Of a stretch of 64,000 nt of DNA, positions 8,176 through 17,199 are shown one piece after another (position 1 is the stretch's first letter; every line of letters begins with the position of its first letter). The notes beneath the pieces were generated by a model. The model was not told where the DNA came from. It did no database searches and saw only the letters and a list, made by a program, of their open reading frames with translations. This DNA is from Verrucomicrobiia bacterium DG1235 (GTDB lineage: Bacteria > Verrucomicrobiota > Verrucomicrobiia > Opitutales > Opitutaceae), in the NCBI GenBank assembly GCA_000155695.1, contig DS990592.1, positions 3,410,335 through 3,474,334 on the forward strand, read 5' to 3'. The position numbers and the translations under genes were made by a program.

Positions 8176-9327
8176 TCAATTGCCTCTCAACTTATTCGTA
8201 AGCCAAGAAAGAGGGCCTAAAAAATAATATAGAAACGATGCCCACCTAGGGAGATTAAACCGAAAATACACGGGCGGCCAAATCAACAAGGTAGAGAGAT
8301 AACGGAGTTTATTCCTTAGGCCTTTGTTTAATATAAGCAGAGCAACACTTCTTCTGAGCATATTTCCCATATCACTCGAAATCTCTTTTCCCGTCGTCAT
8401 TTGCCGAAGACATAGTTTTCCTATAAACGATACCTCCCGTGCTTTCGAGGTCCCTAAAGAAACAGGCCAAAGCCTTTGAATAAGTTCATCTCTTAGCTCT
8501 CCAAGCTGGGAATTTTGAGACTCGGATCGTGGCAAAGAATGCTCAACTGGATGACAAGAATTTATCATCCTTATATCATGAAGCCACTTAATCCGATTCC
8601 AGCAATGAGATGAACCATGCATTGTTAAATATAGCTGCAGGTGCTCACGACCTAGAGTGTACAACGTCTCTCCCGCTATAGTCACCTCTTGCTTACCAAT
8701 AAAAACACGGCTAGCCTGCACATTCCACAATGTCTCATTTCGAGAAAGTCTCCAATGTAACTCTATTTGCTGCTCTCCCTTTTGAAAATGAATATGATAT
8801 AGCGAATCCCAAATAGGATCGTCGCTTTCACGCTGAGAGACGATACCGCCATCATTAGATTGATAACCTAACTCCAAAAGAACGAAATAAGCTTTCGACA
8901 AAGCCCCCCTCTCGACGAGCAAATCCAAATCCCCAAATTGCCGCCGTATTGGATCGCGATATATTAACTGCGACAAAACCGGCCCTTTCAGGCAAAGATG
9001 CTCTATCCCTTTCGAACGAAAGACTTGTGTGATCTCAATCAAAGCTCTAAAGCCTTTCATTTGACGCAACTGCAGAGACCTAACTCTACCTACAAGGTCA
9101 GTACGTATGTGATCACTTAAAAGCGACCAAAGGATCTTCTCCCTTAGTACATAATAAACGGGAACAAGAACGCGGTGACGTACAAGGAGTGAGACAAAAT
9201 CATGAAAATCTCCGCATTTTATCAACGCCTGTTTCAGCGTTTCGCTTTCAACGAATTCTCCAGCGTCCACTCTAAGACACAGAAGCATCAGCCTAAACTC
9301 TTGTGATAAAGTCTCGTTTTCAGCCAT
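8176..9327 (-). CDS. Nucleotidyltransferase family protein (NTP_transf_5-type)
   Basis: A 383-residue protein with the Pol-beta-like nucleotidyltransferase centre of the NTP_transf_5 family: LCLKGPVLSQLIY, then RQFGDLDLLV, in which the DLDLLV carries the metal-binding aspartates, and HFQKGEQQIELHWRLS downstream. Members of this family occur in lasso-peptide loci of the paeninodin type and in polysaccharide clusters; the substrate is usually unknown. It lies downstream of the NDP-sugar epimerase/dehydratase on the same strand, 218 bp apart, and about 2.6 kb from the HPr-kinase-like gene. I infer it belongs to the RiPP-like locus, but a surface-polysaccharide role is possible. Confidence 0.78.
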   Translation of the reverse strand: MAENETLSQEFRLMLLCLRVDAGEFVESETLKQALIKCGDFHDFVSLLVRHRVLVPVYYVLREKILWSLLSDHIRTDLVGRVRSLQLRQMKGFRALIEITQVFRSKGIEHLCLKGPVLSQLIYRDPIRRQFGDLDLLVERGALSKAYFVLLELGYQSNDGGIVSQRESDDPIWDSLYHIHFQKGEQQIELHWRLSRNETLWNVQASRVFIGKQEVTIAGETLYTLGREHLQLYLTMHGSSHCWNRIKWLHDIRMINSCHPVEHSLPRSESQNSQLGELRDELIQRLWPVSLGTSKAREVSFIGKLCLRQMTTGKEISSDMGNMLRRSVALLILNKGLRNKLRYLSTLLIWPPVYFRFNLPRWASFLYYFLGPLSWLTNKLRGN

Positions 9328-9545
9328 AGCCTGATCCAGAGCCCAACCTTGCCTCTAGGTGAGGCTCGGACAAACCAAATCCTCTTCAATCTAGTCTGTT
9401 AGGGATTCAAATATCAAAACTCGTATCGAAAAGTCATGCCCTTCTCCAAGATCTCAGCGCAATTCTGCGGGGAAATGATACGATCTAGATTTTTCGTATT
9501 GGAATTTTCGAATCTGAAACCTCCAACCCAACTCCAACCGACCGG

Positions 9546-11555
9546 CTACGCCGTCCGATTATCGAAGGAGATCAACTTGTCACCCACCACCTTCACTCCA
9601 TCTTTGCGATAGGCCGTACCCACCTCAGGGTGGGCTGGAGCCCATTGCGGAGCCGAATAATCGGGAACATACTCCGGCACGAAACTATTAAGCTTCCGTT
9701 TCAAAGCATTGTAATCCGAAGAGCGAAGAAGTGGGGAAAGCTCTTTGAGGAAATTCCGAACTTCCTGCTCATTCGACTTTCGACCGGTAAAGCGAAAGAC
9801 CTTTTCGTTCTCAGTTATCTCAAGCGTTTCCTGCTCATGCTGCAGCTCCTCATAGAGCTTCTCGCCAGGTCGTAATCCCGTAAACTTAATTTCGATATCT
9901 TCATCGATACGCAGGCCACTGAGCTTGATCATCTGCTTAGCCAAATCGTAAATCTTGATTGGCTCTCCCATGTCGAGAACGAAGATTTCACCGCCAGTCG
10001 CATCCACTGAACACTCGAGAACAAGCCCAACAGCTTCCGGCACGGTCATGAAGTAGCGAGTGATTTCCGCGTGGGTAACCGTTACTGGTCCCCCTTCTTC
10101 GATTTGACGTTTGAAGGTTGGTATAACACTTCCCGACGAACCGAGAACGTTGCCAAAACGGACCGCTACAAACTGAGGAATCTTAGTCGAATCCTGCAAC
10201 GACTGGAGAAAAATCTCTGCGAGTCGTTTGGAGACCCCCATGACATTTGTCGGGTTCACCGCTTTATCAGTCGAGATGAACACGAAACGTTCGACTTCGT
10301 ACTTGATCGCCAAATCTGCCAAAAGGGCCGTACCCAGAGTGTTGTTACGAATCGCCTCGCCGGGCTGATGCTCCATCATAGGAACATGCTTATGGGCTGC
10401 AGCGTGAAAAATAACGTCCGGCAAAAACCCGCCCATTAAAAAATCCATGCGAGCTTCGTCAGTGATATCTCCGATAAAGGCGTGTGACGGAATATCTGGA
10501 AACTCAGACTTAATCTTCTGCTCGGTTTGAAACAGTAAATATTCCGCCCTCTCGACCATGATCACCATGCTCGGATTACACTGGGCGATCTGCCGGCAAA
10601 GCTCGCCGCCAATCGTTCCTCCAGCACCGGTCACGAGAGCTACTTTCCCCTCCAGGCCGTTTAACACCTTTGACGAGTGGAGCTTAATCGAATTCCGTCC
10701 CAGCAGATCGTCAATTTTGACCGGCCTGATGCGATCCACCTTTTTCCGGCCCGAGGCCAAATCCATCCAGGAGGGGACGATTTCAACGCTGAGCTTAAAC
10801 TGTTCGGCAACATCTGTGATCTCGCGTATTTTCGACGGACTCGCAGCCGGCATCGCCACGATGAGTTTATTTGCCCCAGAACCTGAATTCACATCAAAGG
10901 CTTCACTCACGGACGGATACACGCGGAGACCATGAACATGTTTCCCCCACTTGAACGGATCATCGTCAATGAATGCGACCGGGACCATCGACTTACTCCG
11001 CTTTCCCATCAAATCCGCAGCGAGAGCCGCGCCTGTATGCCCTGCACCGTAAATGACGACACGATGACGATCAGCTCCCTCAGACAAAGCTCCCACCCCC
11101 GACTTCTTTTCTCGGTAGATACGCAAAGTAGTCCGGAAAACGCAGACAAGGCTCACAGAAATGAAGAAATCCAGGACAATAGCCGACTTCGAAATCAGCA
11201 GGCCAAGGTCGAAATAGAACGAGAGAAAAAAGAAACCGAGAGAAGGAATACCCAAAGCCGCCGCTAGCCGATATACGTCCGGGAGACGGAAAAAAGTAAG
11301 CAAGCCCTTGAACTGTCCAAAGAAAAACAGCGATGCCAATTTCGCCGGCAATAGCCAAAATAGACTATCGAGTATCAGACCTATTGTTGCAGAGCTGATC
11401 GTGAAGTCGTCTCGAAACTCGAAAGACAAAACGAGACTGATCACGAAAATTGTCGAGTACGCAGCTACCAGCATCGTAAACCGGCCTGCCCGATGGATCC
11501 ACATACTTGAGTCTGTTTTCATCTGCTTACACACACTGTGGCGATAACCTGCCAT
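9546..11555 (-). CDS. NDP-sugar epimerase/dehydratase, WbpM/CapD-like
   Basis: A membrane-anchored NAD-dependent nucleotide-sugar epimerase/4,6-dehydratase of about 669 residues. Four membrane spans occupy the first 140 residues. A CoA-binding-like Rossmann domain follows (VVIYGAGHTGAALAADLMG, near 167). The catalytic SDR domain carries VALVTGAGGTIGGELCRQI (near 307), FHAAAHKHVPMME, FVFISTDKAVNPTNVMGVSKR (catalytic STDKA...K with Met in place of Tyr, as in the long WbpM/CapD form) and the RFGNVLGSSGSVIP motif. The family makes 4-keto-6-deoxy sugars for surface polysaccharides. A start at ATG 11522 (MKTDSSMW) is equally plausible. It is divergent from the kinase gene at 11934. Confidence 0.9.
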   Translation of the reverse strand: MAGYRHSVCKQMKTDSSMWIHRAGRFTMLVAAYSTIFVISLVLSFEFRDDFTISSATIGLILDSLFWLLPAKLASLFFFGQFKGLLTFFRLPDVYRLAAALGIPSLGFFFLSFYFDLGLLISKSAIVLDFFISVSLVCVFRTTLRIYREKKSGVGALSEGADRHRVVIYGAGHTGAALAADLMGKRSKSMVPVAFIDDDPFKWGKHVHGLRVYPSVSEAFDVNSGSGANKLIVAMPAASPSKIREITDVAEQFKLSVEIVPSWMDLASGRKKVDRIRPVKIDDLLGRNSIKLHSSKVLNGLEGKVALVTGAGGTIGGELCRQIAQCNPSMVIMVERAEYLLFQTEQKIKSEFPDIPSHAFIGDITDEARMDFLMGGFLPDVIFHAAAHKHVPMMEHQPGEAIRNNTLGTALLADLAIKYEVERFVFISTDKAVNPTNVMGVSKRLAEIFLQSLQDSTKIPQFVAVRFGNVLGSSGSVIPTFKRQIEEGGPVTVTHAEITRYFMTVPEAVGLVLECSVDATGGEIFVLDMGEPIKIYDLAKQMIKLSGLRIDEDIEIKFTGLRPGEKLYEELQHEQETLEITENEKVFRFTGRKSNEQEVRNFLKELSPLLRSSDYNALKRKLNSFVPEYVPDYSAPQWAPAHPEVGTAYRKDGVKVVGDKLISFDNRTA

Positions 11556-11933
11556 ACTTCATTCGCGAGTAGAAACAACGCAACAAATCAAAAAATCACA
11601 ATTCTGCGGGGTTATTACGTAGCATCAAATAGCAGTCACACTGGCAATTTTGAAAAAGGCAAGCCATTAACCATGAGTCGAATATCCATAATTCCGAAGA
11701 CTCGCCCCTTGCTCCTTCACAGCACTCAGAAAACGCAAATTCATATCCCAAACAAACGACAAATTCGAAAAACACCTTACCCTATTCGCGAATTTACGAA
11801 ACATGGTTTCACCCATTTTTCCTCCTACATCTGCCAAAATTCACTTTTCTAAACTCCGCCATTCCATCCGTAGGTTTCCTGTTCTACATCCCTATTGACG
11901 GACCTACCCACTTTCAGCTCACTTCGAAGCAGA
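11556..11933. other. Divergent AT-rich intergenic region
   Basis: About 380 bp between the divergent epimerase and kinase genes, more AT-rich than either gene. It probably contains both promoters, but I cannot assign -35/-10 boxes with confidence. The plus ORF at 11538-11852 has no domain and reads like non-coding sequence. Confidence 0.5.
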
Positions 11934-12830
11934 ATGCCCCGCCAATACAACGCCTTCGGCCTAAAGATCGCCTCTGAAATCGAGCTGCCACTCCCAGAAA
12001 TCGAGCACACGAGCCCAGACACGACTATCAAGCTGGGCGACGTGCCCGACAACTTGGAAAACGCCTTTCAAACAGGTCTCTGCTTTCAGCTCACCGACTC
12101 ACAGCTCCTCCTGCGCATTGACGGAATCGCCACGTTTTGGATTAAGAACGGAAGCAGCATCATCGTCCAACCACTCCATCCTAAAACCACCGCAGCCGAC
12201 CTCAGCGTCTACCTGCTCGGATCTAGCCTCGGAGCAATCCTCGACCAAAGAGGCGTCAGCTGCCTCCACTCCTCCGCCGTCTCGAAAAACGACGAATGCG
12301 TCCTCTTCCTCGGAAAATCCGGGGCAGGAAAGTCGACCATGGCCACCGCGCTTGCCCGTAGAGGATTCGACTTTCTCACCGACGACATCTGTCCGCTCAA
12401 AATTGACTCAGGCAAAATTCACGCCTGCCCGGGGTATCCCATGTCGAAATTATGGCCGGACAGTCTTCACCACCTGGACCTCGATCCCGACCACCTGCCC
12501 CACTTGCGGCAAGGCATTTCAAAGCGGCGCTTCCCGATCGAAACGGCATTCTCCTCCACGCCCCGACCTGTTTCGAAAATCTTTCTCCTTTCAAATTCGA
12601 CCAAACCGAAAGCGGAGATTCTTCCCCTTCAGCCGATTGAAGCCCTCGCCACCTGCAAACGCCATAGCTACCGACCCATTTTCAAGAAACCTCCAGAACG
12701 ACAGAAACACCATTTCGAGACCTTAGCCCGCCTCGCTCAAACCGTTCCCGCATACCACATCCTGAGACCGAAAAACACTTTCGACCTCGACGCTCTCATC
12801 GATGAGGTGAACTTCACTATTCAAGCCTGA
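11934..12830 (+). CDS. HPr-kinase-like protein (candidate RiPP kinase)
   Basis: A 298-residue protein related to the C-terminal domain of HPr kinase (HprK-related kinase, PadeK-like). Visible: LHSSAVS (111-117), a P-loop GKSGAGKST (127-135), FDFLTDDICPL with the paired aspartates at 150-151, and CPGYPMSKLWP after it. It lacks an HPr partner gene nearby. In paeninodin-type lasso loci such kinases phosphorylate the C-terminal serine of the precursor peptide, and the small peptide encoded 1.2 kb downstream ends in serine. The start at ATG 11934 is preferred over TTG 11895. The stop is 2 bp before the sulfotransferase start, so it leads a four-gene operon. Alternative: the uncharacterised 'HPr-rel-A' system linked to exosortase species. 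Confidence 0.82.
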   Translation: MPRQYNAFGLKIASEIELPLPEIEHTSPDTTIKLGDVPDNLENAFQTGLCFQLTDSQLLLRIDGIATFWIKNGSSIIVQPLHPKTTAADLSVYLLGSSLGAILDQRGVSCLHSSAVSKNDECVLFLGKSGAGKSTMATALARRGFDFLTDDICPLKIDSGKIHACPGYPMSKLWPDSLHHLDLDPDHLPHLRQGISKRRFPIETAFSSTPRPVSKIFLLSNSTKPKAEILPLQPIEALATCKRHSYRPIFKKPPERQKHHFETLARLAQTVPAYHILRPKNTFDLDALIDEVNFTIQA

Positions 12831-12832
12831 CC

Positions 12833-13681
12833 GTGAAACCCCTAATCTGGCTCGCTTCCTATCCACGCTCAGGAAACACATGGCTTCGCGTTGTCCTGAC
12901 AAACCTTCTTCAGTCCAAGGACCAGCCTGCATCGATAAACGATATCGAGTACACCCCCATTCCAAGCAGCAGTCACTTCCTCGAAGACATCCTAGGCTAC
13001 GATGTCGACACTCACAGTCCCGAGGAAATCGAAACCCTCCTCCCGAACGCCCTGCGCTGGCACGCTAAGCACCTCAAAAATCCATTTTACTACAAGCTAC
13101 ACGATCTTCGCTACGAAGCTCTCGTCCCCCCGGAACTGACGCGGCAAATCATCTACCTCGTCCGCAATCCGCTCGACGTCTGCGTATCATTCGCCGCATT
13201 CCTGGGCATCCGAGACATGGACGCAGCAGTAGATATCATCTGCAATCCCGAGCAAGCAATCGCCACCTCCAGCTCCCGCTTTCCAGACCAATTCCCCCAG
13301 CGAATATCCTCATGGTCCCACCACGCGCAAAGTTGGACGGAAGGCCACACCATGCCATGCCTAGTCACGCGCTACGAGGACATGCTCCGAGATCCACTCG
13401 CGTCGTTTTCTCGAATCGCACGCGCCCTTTCGCTCAACCCCGACTCCCACACCCTGACGAAAGCCATCGAGAACGCCTCCTTCGAAAACTTGCAGAAACA
13501 AGAAAAAGCCCAGCCTTTCAAGGAGAGCCACCCAACGACTGAACGCTTCTTCCGCAAAGGAAAGACCGGTAACTGGCGCGAAGCCCTCACCAGCGCTCAA
13601 GCCCAAAGAATAATCGAAATCCACGGCGACTACATGCGACGCTTCGCTTATCTTGACCAAGACTCCCAGCCAATATTCTAA
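12833..13681 (+). CDS. Sulfotransferase family protein
   Basis: A 282-residue PAPS-dependent sulfotransferase. The 5'-phosphosulfate loop is LASYPRSGNTWLR (residues 7-19) and the 3'-phosphate motif is IIYLVRNPLDVCVSF. A late RKGKTGNWREAL segment matches the conserved C-terminal RKG.. loop. The start is GTG at 12833, two bases after the kinase stop, with no room for another start. It is cytoplasmic, with no signal or membrane span. In this operon it may sulfate the RiPP-like product or a glycan; the sequence does not say which. Conserved catalytic His/Lys residues beyond the two PAPS motifs were not traced. Confidence 0.85.
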   Translation: MKPLIWLASYPRSGNTWLRVVLTNLLQSKDQPASINDIEYTPIPSSSHFLEDILGYDVDTHSPEEIETLLPNALRWHAKHLKNPFYYKLHDLRYEALVPPELTRQIIYLVRNPLDVCVSFAAFLGIRDMDAAVDIICNPEQAIATSSSRFPDQFPQRISSWSHHAQSWTEGHTMPCLVTRYEDMLRDPLASFSRIARALSLNPDSHTLTKAIENASFENLQKQEKAQPFKESHPTTERFFRKGKTGNWREALTSAQAQRIIEIHGDYMRRFAYLDQDSQPIF

Positions 13682-13690
13682 TCCTTACCT

Positions 13691-13966
13691 ATGCCCTCAC
13701 TCGATCTTCAATCAGCCTTGAGCCAATCGCCGAACCAAGTATCCTGCGTGCTCGAAAACGAAAGAGTGATCCTGGACACAAATTCAGGTAGCTATTTCCA
13801 ACTCAGTTCCGTGGGCAGCGATATTTGGGATAAGATAGGCCAAAACAAAACCATAGCCACCATTCTGAGGGAGCTCGCCAACGAGTACGACCAAAGCTCC
13901 GAAATCATCGAAAAGGAAGCGCTCGACTTCATCGAAACCCTCCTTCAAAAGAAACTCGTCATTTGA
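13691..13966 (+). CDS. PqqD-like RiPP recognition element (B1-like)
   Basis: A 91-residue stand-alone PqqD-family protein, the fold that binds RiPP leader peptides. The pattern is QVSCVLENERVILDTNSGSYF (beta strands), LSSVGSDIWDKIG (first helix), TIATILRELANEYD and the last helix ALDFIETLLQKKLV. In lasso loci this is the B1 protein that delivers the precursor to the protease and cyclase. It lies 9 bp after the sulfotransferase gene and 15 bp before the candidate precursor gene, which fits that role well. HprK-related systems also carry PqqD-like proteins. Confidence 0.85.
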   Translation: MPSLDLQSALSQSPNQVSCVLENERVILDTNSGSYFQLSSVGSDIWDKIGQNKTIATILRELANEYDQSSEIIEKEALDFIETLLQKKLVI

Positions 13967-13981
13967 ATTAACCACACCGCC

Positions 13982-14146
13982 ATGAAAGACCCAAAATCCA
14001 GCCCTTCGAACCAGCCGCAATCGACTTCTGACACCTCCCCCAAGAAAGCCTGGGAAACGCCCACCTGCTCAGACATCGACGACCTCAAAATCGAAGGGGG
14101 ACCAGCAGTCTTTATCACAGAGTCACCCACCGCACACGTATCCTGA
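13982..14146 (+). CDS. Candidate lasso-peptide precursor (54 aa)
   Basis: A small gene, 15 bp after the PqqD-like gene. A Ser/Pro/Gln-rich start is followed by KKAWETPTCSDIDDLKIEGG, close to the K-[YW]-x-x-P...D leader pattern that PqqD-like B1 proteins recognise in lasso precursors. The tail after the leader is GGPAVFITESPTAHVS. If cleavage leaves Gly39 or Gly40 as residue 1, Glu47 is residue 9 or 8, the right place for a macrolactam acceptor. The last residue is Ser, the residue phosphorylated in paeninodin-type peptides. The usual Thr at leader position -2 is missing (Ile or Glu here). No SD seen. It is convergent with the cyclase-like gene (26 bp between stops). Confidence 0.68.
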   Translation: MKDPKSSPSNQPQSTSDTSPKKAWETPTCSDIDDLKIEGGPAVFITESPTAHVS

Positions 14147-14172
14147 AGCTGCAGGACGAAGATAGAATTCCG

Positions 14173-16074
14173 TTACGCAAAACAAGCTGACAAACAAGCC
14201 GCTAAACCCAAAGTCATCGGCATTCTTCTTTGAGGAGGCAACAAAGGACGCTCCTCGCTAAGTTGTCTCAACTCCCTTTCGATCGCCGCAACATCAACGA
14301 GCCGTTCAACAAGTTCGTTCCCTTTTCTCTGCGCTAAAGCTGACATAAGCCTATCTCTTTCGTGAAAGACACAAGCCTGTGGCCACGGAATCCCCGCAGC
14401 TTGATTATCGTCTCTCCATCGAATGAAATCTGGGAGTTCGTCAATGCATCCACGCAACAGATAACGTCCCCAACCAAAACGCCGCTTATACTCCGAGGGA
14501 GCCGCCAGACAATACTCCAACAAAGGAACATCCATCATCGGATACCTTAGCTCCATTCGGCGCGACTGAGACAAAGAGCTCCCCTCAGGAAACCGGCCAC
14601 GGTCCAAGTAGAAGCCCGTAGTCTGAAAAACCAGCTTCTCTTTCAAACTTCGAAAGTTAACCCTTCTCGCCAAAGTCCTTCGACGCTCATTCACGCTGTA
14701 AAAAGCTTCAACTTCGGTAAGGAGAACACTGAAATCTAAGTCCTCAACGACCTTTATCCGGGATGCTAGGCCGAGAGCGCGGCGTACGTGGGCAGCCAAA
14801 ACCCGAAGACGCTGCCCCACCCCCCAAGACTTCATTTTCGATTCCTGGCTCCATTCACTCCAAAACCGTCGCAATTGGCCCTTATTGAGAAAGTCTACAT
14901 AGGCGAGTGATGCAGGATCGCTCACCAAGTTGTTGCCACCCGCGCCAGACAACAAAACCCTCGCTCCAGACTCCCGTGACGCTGCGTCATACAAAGGTTG
15001 AGAAAACAAAGACCAAAGCTCAAGTTGGGGCGATTGTTTCTGAATGGCCGCACTTTCTATCAAAGCGCTCATTCCGCCTTCCGCACCCTCTATTTTCCGA
15101 GGCTTCCGAAAACCCATCTCAACCGCGAAGCGACAGGCAATATCGTACTCATGAGATATCTCATTTCCCACAATTTGCCTGCCTTCGCTCATTCCATGGG
15201 TAAACAAAGAAATCTTATCAGCCTCTGCCCCCACTCTCCTGGCAGTCGAAAGAATCGACGTACAATCGATTCCTCCACTGAGCTCCGAGGCTATCGGAAA
15301 ACTGCTGCGCAAACGACTCTTCACCGCCGCATCAAATCGTTCGCGAAACCCCTCTTTAAACTCTTCGAAACTACTATAGTTTCCTTCCTCCGAAACCTTG
15401 AGTCGCCAATACTCTCGCTTCTCAGTATCCCGTCTGGCCACTTTCAGAACGTGCCCTCTACTCAACAACCTAACCGCCTTAAAGTAAGTGGCCTCGCGAT
15501 TGTCCTCAAGATGCAGGCTGGATAAGTAGTCGACCACCCAGGAGTCGTTAACCGAACGAGGCACGGCAGGGTGGGACATCACACCGCGCAACTCGCTGGC
15601 GAAGACGAGTAAATCCCTCGATTCATAAAAAAACAGCGGCCGAACTCCCACGTGATCACGTATCAGGAGCATCGTTCGAGATCTTGAATCCCAGATAGCA
15701 ATCGCAAAGTCACCCAACAGTTTTTCGGCTACCCCTTCCCCCCACTTTTCGTAGGCCGCGAGAGCAAGATCCGCGTCTGTGAACGAACCCAACCCACAAG
15801 GCTCGATTCCAAGCTCCCTTGATAAATCAGCCCGATTATCCAGACGAATATCGGCAACAATCCAACAGGTTTCGCTCTGCGAACTGCTCGGCTGCATCTC
15901 ACCTGCCGATTCCGGAGTCACTCGCAAACCAACTATCCCTAAGGCGACCTCCCCGCTAACTCGCGAGTTTGAATAGTCAGCTTCCCAATAATTGAGATTG
16001 GCGACCATCAACTCAAAACCGCTACGATCAACGTCGCTTCCAGTTCGATCAAAAACGCCAAAAATAGTACTCAC
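14173..16074 (-). CDS. Asparagine-synthetase-like protein (candidate lasso cyclase)
   Basis: A 633-residue member of the asparagine synthetase B superfamily. The N-terminal glutaminase-like domain begins MSTIFGVF, with Ser at position 2 instead of the catalytic Cys, so it cannot use glutamine in the normal way. It retains ELLGDFAIAIWD-type and RDHVGVRPLFF motifs. The synthetase domain has the ATP pyrophosphatase loop SELSGGIDCTS (263-273) and LLSGAGGNN (374-382), where true AsnB has GGDE. Loss of Cys2 is normal in lasso cyclases (C proteins), which adenylate the Asp/Glu side chain and close the ring. Placement opposite the peptide gene supports that. Alternative: an amide-forming enzyme of a polysaccharide locus. 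Confidence 0.8.
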   Translation of the reverse strand: MSTIFGVFDRTGSDVDRSGFELMVANLNYWEADYSNSRVSGEVALGIVGLRVTPESAGEMQPSSSQSETCWIVADIRLDNRADLSRELGIEPCGLGSFTDADLALAAYEKWGEGVAEKLLGDFAIAIWDSRSRTMLLIRDHVGVRPLFFYESRDLLVFASELRGVMSHPAVPRSVNDSWVVDYLSSLHLEDNREATYFKAVRLLSRGHVLKVARRDTEKREYWRLKVSEEGNYSSFEEFKEGFRERFDAAVKSRLRSSFPIASELSGGIDCTSILSTARRVGAEADKISLFTHGMSEGRQIVGNEISHEYDIACRFAVEMGFRKPRKIEGAEGGMSALIESAAIQKQSPQLELWSLFSQPLYDAASRESGARVLLSGAGGNNLVSDPASLAYVDFLNKGQLRRFWSEWSQESKMKSWGVGQRLRVLAAHVRRALGLASRIKVVEDLDFSVLLTEVEAFYSVNERRRTLARRVNFRSLKEKLVFQTTGFYLDRGRFPEGSSLSQSRRMELRYPMMDVPLLEYCLAAPSEYKRRFGWGRYLLRGCIDELPDFIRWRDDNQAAGIPWPQACVFHERDRLMSALAQRKGNELVERLVDVAAIERELRQLSEERPLLPPQRRMPMTLGLAACLSACFA

Positions 16075-16202: not shown

Positions 16203-16829
16203 CTACCCGAGCCTTCTACGAACAAAGAAAAAGCCAAACAACGCCAGGCCCAGCATCGCTGCGCTCGAGCCAACATCAGGGACAGGACGAGCGACCGCAT
16301 TCACTCCGAGATATGCGGAGTAGAGTTTCAAAGTCACTCCATCAATCTGATCTTGAGGAGCAAGCCCAACAGACCAGTCAACCCTGCCATCCTCTTGAAT
16401 GTCTACCAGTAGATCGCCCTTGATGGCTCCGTATACATTCGAGTTAAACTCCACTTCATAAGCGTTGTTTCCGTCAAAAAGAGAATCACTGCCAGTAACA
16501 CCAGACGTGCTGAAATAGTCGCTGATGTCGAAAACCAATCGGCTCGCTACAGGGGCGTGGCTATCTGAGAACTCCGCGAAGAGAAATCCAATTACAGCCT
16601 CGGTAACGAGATGCTTGTCTGGATCAAATCCAAGAAGATCTCTACCGTCGCTGTCGTCATTGACGATATCGAAAAACTGACCGGCGATTACCGGGTTATC
16701 TTTCGTCAGATCCGTGAGAAAGACGTCTATGTCCCTGAATTTCGCGTCAGCGATCGAGATGGCAGAAACACTGCTCGCCGAGCACAGAGCCGCAAGAGCT
16801 CCTATAAGTGTAAGAAGTTTAGTTTTCAT
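16203..16829 (-). CDS. PEP-CTERM (VPDSG-type) sorted surface protein
   Basis: A 208-residue secreted protein. ATG 16829 gives MKTKLLTLIGALAALCSASSVSA, a clean signal peptide, and is chosen over an upstream start that would add 25 hydrophilic residues. The body has no family I recognise. The tail VPDVGSSAAMLGLALFG followed by a hydrophobic helix and RRRLG is a PEP-CTERM-like sorting signal of the VPDSG type found in Verrucomicrobiota. Such tails are processed by an exosortase, which is not encoded in this window. Proteins of this class are linked to exopolysaccharide, consistent with the export genes to the left. A terminator at 16154-16177 separates it from the cyclase-like gene. Confidence 0.82.
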   Translation of the reverse strand: MKTKLLTLIGALAALCSASSVSAISIADAKFRDIDVFLTDLTKDNPVIAGQFFDIVNDDSDGRDLLGFDPDKHLVTEAVIGFLFAEFSDSHAPVASRLVFDISDYFSTSGVTGSDSLFDGNNAYEVEFNSNVYGAIKGDLLVDIQEDGRVDWSVGLAPQDQIDGVTLKLYSAYLGVNAVARPVPDVGSSAAMLGLALFGFFFVRRRLG

Positions 16830-17199
16830 GATGTTGTTTGGGTTCGCAGTGGGAGCTGCTGGATACCTAAAACCATCGCTCAAACTAGCTCTTCTCGCAA
16901 GCAACTCACTTTCAATAACTTACCGATCAGGCTCACCCCTACCCTCCAGATAGGACTTCGCGCAAAGACCCTCTAGGGGCGCTGAGGATCCCTACTCAGG
17001 CTCCTTGTAAAGACCTTGCTAATTTCTCGGAAAACCCGCCCTTGAACCGCCTTTTTCAACATATTTTAACACGTTCTCGCCCCCATTTTCACCGCTTTGA
17101 GGGTTTTCCGCATCAGGCTGGCCATCACAAGAAGACCTAACTGGCTCTTTACAAGCTATTTACAAACTTCGCTCAAGCCATCAGGGATTCCCTGACCCG
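16830..17199. other. Intergenic region before the PEP-CTERM gene
   Basis: About 370 bp with no credible ORF. A short inverted repeat TCAGGGA-T-TCCCTGA (17181-17195) lies just beyond the methyltransferase stop but lacks a T-tract. The promoter of the PEP-CTERM gene should lie here; no clear boxes seen. Confidence 0.45.

Follow-up and report, generated by a model that had tools for sequence, protein, structure and literature searches.

A probable phosphorylated lasso peptide locus with an added sulfotransferase in the capsule region of Verrucomicrobiia bacterium DG1235

What might be made by a short run of genes in which a kinase, a sulfotransferase, a PqqD-like protein and a 54-residue peptide stand side by side among exopolysaccharide genes? 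We addressed this question for a locus of Verrucomicrobiia bacterium DG1235 (assembly GCA_000155695.1), using a window of 64,000 nucleotides, positions 3,410,335-3,474,334 of the 5.5-Mb contig DS990592.1 (genome size 5.78 Mb, estimated completeness 96.5%). A preliminary description of the window had proposed a divergent lasso peptide locus, that is, one for a ribosomally synthesized and post-translationally modified peptide (RiPP). Our analysis leads to the same interpretation: with a probability of about 0.8, the locus directs biosynthesis of a phosphorylated (paeninodin-like) lasso peptide with an added sulfotransferase and is inserted in a capsule/exopolysaccharide locus. We assign it to the lasso class because the cyclase (C), the leader-recognition protein (B1) and the leader peptidase (B2) match lasso families with an in-genome control, the precursor peptide (A) ranks first among 735 candidates, and a homologue of A exists in the same genus. 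The kinase, sulfotransferase and nucleotidyltransferase are called K, ST and N below, and G and L numbers are our handles for genomes and sequence stretches. Gene content and order, homology, catalytic residues, conservation of the precursor motif and the co-presence of B1, B2 and N within the genus are direct observations.

The cyclase provides the clearest family assignment. K, ST, B1 and A are contiguous on the plus strand with intergenic gaps of 2, 9 and 15 bp, so that the open reading frame (ORF) coordinates bear out the tight run first described, and the AsnB-like gene converges on it, 26 bp from the peptide gene. Residue 2 of the AsnB-like protein is Ser and not Cys, in line with the earlier remark that the glutaminase Cys was lacking. 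In NCBIfam, the lasso cyclase model NF033535 ranked first (330.9 bits), ahead of asparagine synthase TIGR01536 (185.0) and the XrtA/exopolysaccharide (EPS) amidotransferase TIGR03108 (143.0). The genome has two further PF00733 matches, one of them marginal; the strong one, a 626-residue EPS-type paralogue 26 kb away, served as a control and scored 178.7, 453.8 and 474.6 bits with the same models. The lasso model was also top-ranked for all seven other cyclases scanned, which were hand-chosen from related and distant loci. The window cyclase keeps the conserved D140, S266, G268 and D270 (a length filter left 2 of 48 cyclases out of the alignment). We therefore rejected identity as a capsule/EPS amidotransferase, since the lasso score is highest, the order is reversed in the EPS-type paralogue and residue 2 is Ser. 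By family, as judged from sequence, the AsnB-like protein is a lasso cyclase, and the clustering with polysaccharide enzymes that had been raised as the alternative was not found.

In the genome, PF05402 matched B1 alone, and the best NCBIfam model for B1 is NF033536 (lasso_PqqD). A profile of 16 B1 sequences matched the solved lasso B1 structures 9x90 (1.5e-27) and TbiB1 5v1u (2.9e-24). The 54-residue peptide has the features of a lasso precursor. With a profile built on 21 small peptides encoded close to K-ST loci in other phyla, none from this order, it ranked first among the 735 window ORFs of 20-150 residues (9.6 bits, E 0.028; the next scored 6.8). Its leader, KKAWETPTCSDIDDLKIE, comprises residues 1-38, has the motif W(-15)xxP(-12) and ends in Ile(-2)-Glu(-1); the predicted core is GGPAVFITESPTAHVS, with a predicted G1-E9 lactam and a C-terminal Ser16. 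We set the leader end at Ile(-2)-Glu(-1) because the leader block agrees with the precursor of G432, a member of the same genus; this core start is by homology, and an alternative start at GPAVFITE would give a ring of 8. The G432 precursor is MANSNHSDPVEESTAPSKKTWTSPVCEDLDDIKIEGGGIPGGPEDTTFTS and the window counterpart MKDPKSSPSNQPQSTSDTSPKKAWETPTCSDIDDLKIEGGPAVFITESPTAHVS. The two agree in W..P.C.D.DD.KIE, G1, G2, E9 and the last Ser (junction KIE|GG), and the remainder of the core differs.

Small peptides are kept at homologous loci elsewhere, which bears on the question of whether the enzymes ever occur with such a peptide in other genomes: they were found in G432, which has the same K-ST-B1-A and opposed C order, in G433, G435, G436, G381, G351, G202 and G196, and at many loci of other phyla. 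Precursors of the eight named genomes all have a C-terminal Ser, and the window precursor ends in HVS. When core starts are assigned by hand, core residue 8 or 9 is acidic in the same-family precursors. At K loci of other genomes, a terminal Ser occurred in 37 of 89 motif candidates and 835 of 9297 other small ORFs (Fisher p 4e-16); the candidates include evident chance ORFs, none of which was removed, and were selected independently of their last residue. On its own, a strict regular expression was weak: it gave 36 matches, spread over 28 of the 66 K loci, against 8 in shuffled ORFs. Two further peptide sets were noted: a 35-residue ORF (L032:5019-5126) scores 12.4 bits with the precursor profile, and L093:12327-14030 has tandem precursor-like peptides with leaders WExPxVKxEYxIxELTK, every one Ser-terminated.

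The HPr-kinase-like call in the preliminary description stands, although the family match is weak (Pfam, 26.1 bits against a cut-off of 33.3), because the catalytic pattern is invariant and the fold model confident. K has the paeninodin-type kinase set of His, P-loop Lys/Ser and Asp-Asp (H125, K146, S147, D163, D164). H125, G140, G143, G145, K146, S147 and D163 were invariant in a 41-sequence alignment and D164 was present in at least 90%; in a wider set (n = 63), H125 was found in 61 and D164 in 59. A length filter dropped 4 of 66 sequences from the kinase alignment. The residue spacing equals that of H148, G163, G166, G168, K169, S170, D186 and D187 given for BsfK in a part of PMC10368454. 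The structure model of K (predicted local distance difference test score, 94.8) matches PEPCK first among PDB folds and HPr kinase/phosphatase from rank 28. The gene probably starts at ATG 11934 rather than TTG 11895; we prefer the former because the conserved Y18 and G22 fall after it.

ST contains SYPRSGNTW, K88xH90, R111...S119 and RKGxxGxW, which we take to be motifs for catalysis and for binding of 3'-phosphoadenosine 5'-phosphosulfate (PAPS). Conserved in it are the W6-W17 block, K88, H90, R111, S119, G243 and W248 (2 of 66 STs were dropped from the alignment by the length filter). The genome itself encodes an adenosine 5'-phosphosulfate (APS) kinase, and PAPS is therefore likely made.

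We found at least 578 relatives of ST in named genomes and used the best 80 of these, some of whose stretches end at contig ends. A K-family gene was present in the stretch of 66 of the 80, on the same strand with a gap of -600 to 200 bp in 63. B1 accompanied 54 of the K-bearing loci, C 48, B2 44 and N 36; at the 14 loci lacking K, none of B1, B2, C or N was found. Of the 66 K loci, 28 (counting the seeds) scored at least 10 bits with the precursor profile; none of the 14 did. Three residues mark the lasso-linked STs against the kinase-less ones: R47 (66/68 vs 2/14), D51 (60/68 vs 1/14) and D91 (61/68 vs 1/14). We dropped a claim about ST ancestry, as the 14 kinase-less STs formed no clade in a midpoint-rooted tree and support for the window branch was 0.39. 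The K-bearing loci span Pseudomonadota, Bacteroidales, Chloroflexota, Acidobacteria, Armatimonadetes, a cyanobacterium (Petrachloros), Actinomycetes, Verrucomicrobia and Wallbacteria. A stretch from Armatimonadetes (L088) has a natural K-ST fusion in one frame and a B2-N fusion in another (8900-10852 and 11117-12742); it also encodes several precursor-like peptides in which Asp8 may close the ring and the last residue is not Ser.

A general link between K-ST and polysaccharides was not retained. Of the 66 K loci, 44 had stretches of at least 15 kb; among the 132 neighbour proteins scanned there (of 399), the commonest family was Collar (7), and glycan families were scattered (Polysacc_deac_1 4, Bac_transf 3, Glycos_transf_1 3). 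The capsule link is therefore demonstrated for this genus only. Tandem tail-collar-like proteins (PF07484) of about 180 residues were present in 12 of the 66 kinase stretches (for example L051, L053, L068, L086, L091, L102 and L128) and none of the 14 without a kinase, and also near cyclases in three genomes of the same order (L029, L030, L032). We do not count such genes as part of the DG1235 system, since its genome has no PF07484 match. No paper joining lasso peptides to tail-collar proteins was found in the open-licence literature.

The preliminary gene list held no leader peptidase, and here it had to be extended. The sole B2 over the cut-off in the genome (NF033537, 75.1 bits; cut-off, 33) lies at 3,521,196-3,521,663 (L007:10197-10664, minus strand), outside the window and 94.8 kb from the cyclase gene. 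It carries C89 and H126, each invariant in all 43 aligned B2 proteins (2 of 44 were left out by the length filter). G435, of the same genus, likewise has a K-ST-B1-A-C locus lacking B2, and its sole over-cut-off B2 (54% identical to that of DG1235) is on another contig (L164:9313-9825), 2.2 kb from DUF2868 and DUF3482 GTPase genes. Homologues of these (60% and 74% identical) lie in the same orientation about 11.5 kb from the B2 of DG1235. As judged from gene content, the two B2 genes share a neighbourhood, and their immediate neighbours differ. A second G435 cassette (K, B1, C and a peptide ending in SRS), on a third contig (L180), also lacks B2, and one distant B2 may serve both cassettes. 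G432, G433 and G436 each have a single B2 match, local to the cassette; this comparison thus covers draft assemblies, with a distant B2 in two of five species. The two B2 proteins of G381, 48% and 50% identical to that of DG1235 and a few kb from their cyclases, count against a separate lineage of distant B2. We rejected the GNAT gene beside the DG1235 B2 (L007:9344-10219) as a tailoring enzyme, since the neighbours of B2 in G435 are a cyclophilin-like protein and a protein lacking a Pfam match.

Among 273 genomes of the order, the B1 model matched in 17 at E 0.001 (one over the cut-off) and B2 in 10 (nine over the cut-off). Seven have both, namely DG1235, G196, G202, G042, G105, G167 and G227; B2 without B1 was seen in G096, G106 and, weakly, G032. 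In G042, G105, G167 and G227 the two genes are separated by about 0.5 kb or less; G202 has them 1.5 kb apart and G196 12 kb, and DG1235 is the outlier. The order K-ST-B1 is also present in G196 and G227.

Within the genus, we compared eight genomes (DG1235 and G431-G437). B1 and B2 were both found in five (DG1235, G432, G433, G435 and G436) and neither in G431, G434 and G437; ST matched at E 1e-20 in DG1235, G432, G433 and G435. The arrangement in G432 is B2 (minus), then K, ST, B1 and A (plus), then C (minus). CapD and a VPDSG-CTERM gene flank the cassette in DG1235, G432, G435 and G436, where N stands between Wzz and CapD. Both positions are empty in the cassette-free G437 (Wzz, CapD, VPDSG-CTERM, threonine dehydratase) and G434 (Wzz, CapD, threonine dehydratase). 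N is beside Wzz in all five cassette-bearing members compared and in neither empty stretch. CapD was not matched at E 1e-100 in G431 or G433; in the latter the cassette occupies a different gap of the same neighbourhood, with N still next to Wzz. Five genus members, including two without a cassette, have CapD proteins that are 72-81% identical. Flanking proteins are 59-96% identical to those of the window (Wza 59-71, Wzz 65-77, CapD 72-81, threonine dehydratase 74-83, RodA 80-86, a 582-residue protein 90-96), and cassette proteins 24-42% (K 31-38, ST 31-37, B1 26-39, C 24-29, N 31-42; local alignments, some partial). Repeated replacement of the cassette at one site would give such a pattern of conserved flanks and divergent cassettes; very fast divergence in place is a possible alternative source. 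Foreign origin was not adopted on the basis of G+C content, as K, ST, A and C are within the range of the flanks, although N is low (42.8%). In the G435 slot, a fused glycosyltransferase-8/Sulfotransfer_3 protein directly follows the lasso cyclase (L153:12685-14379), a hint that sulfate may go to a sugar of the peptide or the capsule.

The placement of the locus among exopolysaccharide genes, as first described, was confirmed: Wzi, a Wza-like SLBB/Poly_export protein and Wzz precede it. It is followed by a VPDSG-CTERM protein, a C-5 cytosine methylase, a threonine dehydratase-like enzyme and a RodA-like gene. The VPDSG-CTERM (exosortase-type) protein at window positions 16203-16904 adjoins the cyclase gene, is 30-39% identical within the genus and also occurs in G437. 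The NTP_transf_5 protein reported nearby was recovered as N (Table 1). The range given in the preliminary description also takes in the CapD-like gene.

Table 1. Features of the locus, in window coordinates
Feature	Position	Strand	Evidence and remarks
N, NTP_transf_5 nucleotidyltransferase	8176..9327	-	Pfam 1e-45; candidate tailoring enzyme for phosphorylated peptide
CapD-like polysaccharide dehydratase	9546..11555	-	Polysacc_synt_2 1e-112; host capsule gene, outside the lasso set
K, HPrK-related precursor kinase (putative)	11895..12830	+	HprK_rel_A 6e-10 (below cut-off); invariant catalytic pattern
ST, PAPS-type sulfotransferase	12833..13681	+	Sulfotransfer_1 8.5e-28
B1, PqqD-like leader-recognition protein	13691..13966	+	Pfam PqqD 1.4e-15; NF033536 lasso_PqqD 60.9 bits
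A, 54-residue precursor peptide (putative)	13982..14146	+	Precursor-profile rank 1/735; same-genus homologue
C, lasso cyclase by family, AsnB-like, lacking the N-terminal Cys	14173..16074	-	Asn_synthase 1e-26; NF033535 330.9 bits

The reactions and their order, the sulfation site, ring closure and the threaded fold can be predicted from these sequences as follows. B1 would bind the leader of the 54-residue precursor. K would then phosphorylate Ser16 on the still linear peptide, ahead of cyclization, as described for PadeK in part of PMC9266682, where HPrK homologues are reported to phosphorylate a C-terminal Ser. With PAPS as the donor, ST would sulfate a further precursor hydroxyl or else the modified tail; the predicted core has no Tyr, and the candidates are T8, S10, T12 and S16. 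The distant B2 would cleave after Ile(-2)-Glu(-1), and C would join Gly1 to Glu9, so that a ring of nine residues encloses the tail. A sugar may afterwards be added to the phosphate by N, as passages of PMC8498205 and PMC9266682 report for PsmN.

Several observations weigh against this interpretation. Scores fall below curated cut-offs for K (HprK_rel_A, 38.7 bits; cut-off, 200), the cyclase (NF033535; cut-off, 525) and B1 (NF033536; cut-off, 80). The precursor-profile score is low, and we chose the seeds of the profile by hand among pattern hits. We identified no precursor in G419, and pattern matching gave none for G167, G105 or G227; the peptide of G042, at a kinase locus lacking ST, ends in Gln. 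The cyclase loop SGGIDC contains Cys271, where Ser stands in 46 of 47 aligned cyclases, and of the three residues that mark lasso-linked STs the window protein keeps only D91, with Ser47 and Glu51 in place of the others. B2 is unlinked, with no copy within the locus; the CapD-like gene sits between N and the remaining lasso genes; and an ABC (ATP-binding cassette) exporter gene was not found among the 24 window proteins scanned. Given the estimated completeness of the genome, an absent gene could be an assembly gap. Some of these points would suit a product that is phosphorylated and sulfated but unthreaded, either branched-cyclic or linear: Cys271 and the distant B2 would fit a loosened pathway, the precursor and enzyme evidence is identical for both structures, and threading is unreadable from sequence. 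We nevertheless consider such a RiPP unlikely in view of the B1-B2-C set, the acid at core position 8 or 9 (again with hand-set core starts) and the lasso-cyclase scores.

The same oddities could also be signs of decay, in which the local B2 was lost, family-specific positions of ST and the cyclase changed and the product is no longer made; that B1 and B2 were not found in three of the eight genus members would agree with this. However, the frames are open and tightly spaced, B2 is retained in the same neighbourhood in G435, and the DG1235 B2 keeps its C89 and H126. The G432 precursor keeps the leader, E9 and Ser while its core varies, which is the pattern of a gene in use, and we regard decay as quite improbable. 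It is hardly credible that these are ordinary capsule-modifying enzymes (an AsnB-type amidotransferase, an NTP transferase and a sulfotransferase) with a 54-residue ORF present by chance. The capsule genes Wzi, Wza-like, Wzz and CapD next door would favour this, but the cyclase score, the peptide tests and the co-occurrence with B1 and B2 across phyla argue against it. The phosphorylated lasso peptide with an added sulfotransferase thus remains our preferred explanation.

A bolder extension of the lasso interpretation is speculative, and we think it rather unlikely to hold as a whole: the Wzi-Wza-Wzz-CapD slot may carry an exchangeable capsule lasso module that is swapped in a serotype-like manner, with a fixed distant leader peptidase serving any cassette (in one species possibly two). 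Its phosphorylated, sulfated and glycosylated lasso would be joined to exopolysaccharide through the phosphoserine, or exported with it, and not released free. Exchange of divergent cassettes at a capsule site would point to a function at the cell surface or among kin, for a class of peptides mostly treated as secreted antibiotics. Since B2 is unlinked, genome mining that relies on gene clusters may misjudge lasso systems, and a cassette lacking B2 may be complete. With a full gene set, a predicted core, a same-genus pair and presence/absence controls, the role of the sulfotransferase becomes testable.

The presence of K and ST within lasso clusters is already known and has been in print since 2014. 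That paper (PMC4289311) recorded both enzymes in certain lasso clusters from anaerobes and described their role as unclear, and a 2021 review places a sulfotransferase at the start of a Firmicutes lasso cluster in one passage (PMC8498205). In the open-licence literature, we found no sulfated lasso peptide, nothing on lasso peptides together with exopolysaccharide and HPr kinase, and, for lasso with Verrucomicrobi and sulfotransferase, nothing closer than the 2014 paper; a 2026 review does not mention a sulfotransferase.

Compared with known systems, the locus is closest in gene content to the paeninodin-type clusters, which, as parts of PMC8498205 and PMC9266682 describe them, share a C-terminal Ser precursor, split B1/B2, an AsnB-like C, an HPrK-like kinase with His-Lys-Asp-Asp and sometimes a nucleotidyltransferase. 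Unlike those descriptions, the window has ST directly after the kinase, W for Y in the leader motif, Ile(-2)-Glu(-1), an unlinked B2, no ABC exporter among the proteins scanned and a capsule-locus setting. The Bradymonas bsf cluster shares the kinase, a nucleotidyltransferase and Ile(-2), so that Ile at this leader position has precedent (a section of PMC10368454). In that section, however, BsfK modifies core Ser3 and the cluster, a compact 7.2 kb, includes B2 and D; the paper's text nowhere uses the word sulfotransferase. The XrtA/PEP-CTERM or EPS asparagine-synthase-like amidotransferases have AsnB domains and a similar neighbourhood, but the score order is reversed in the window cyclase. 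The clusters of anaerobes and Firmicutes contain the same two extra kinds of enzyme, and the relevant passages of PMC4289311 and PMC8498205 give gene content only, with no cassette exchange, distant B2 or capsule slot described. New relative to these systems are the capsule-locus slot of this genus, with flanks 59-96% and cassettes 24-42% identical and empty in two lasso-free species, and the two species that encode B2 at a shared distant site, one of them with two cassettes.

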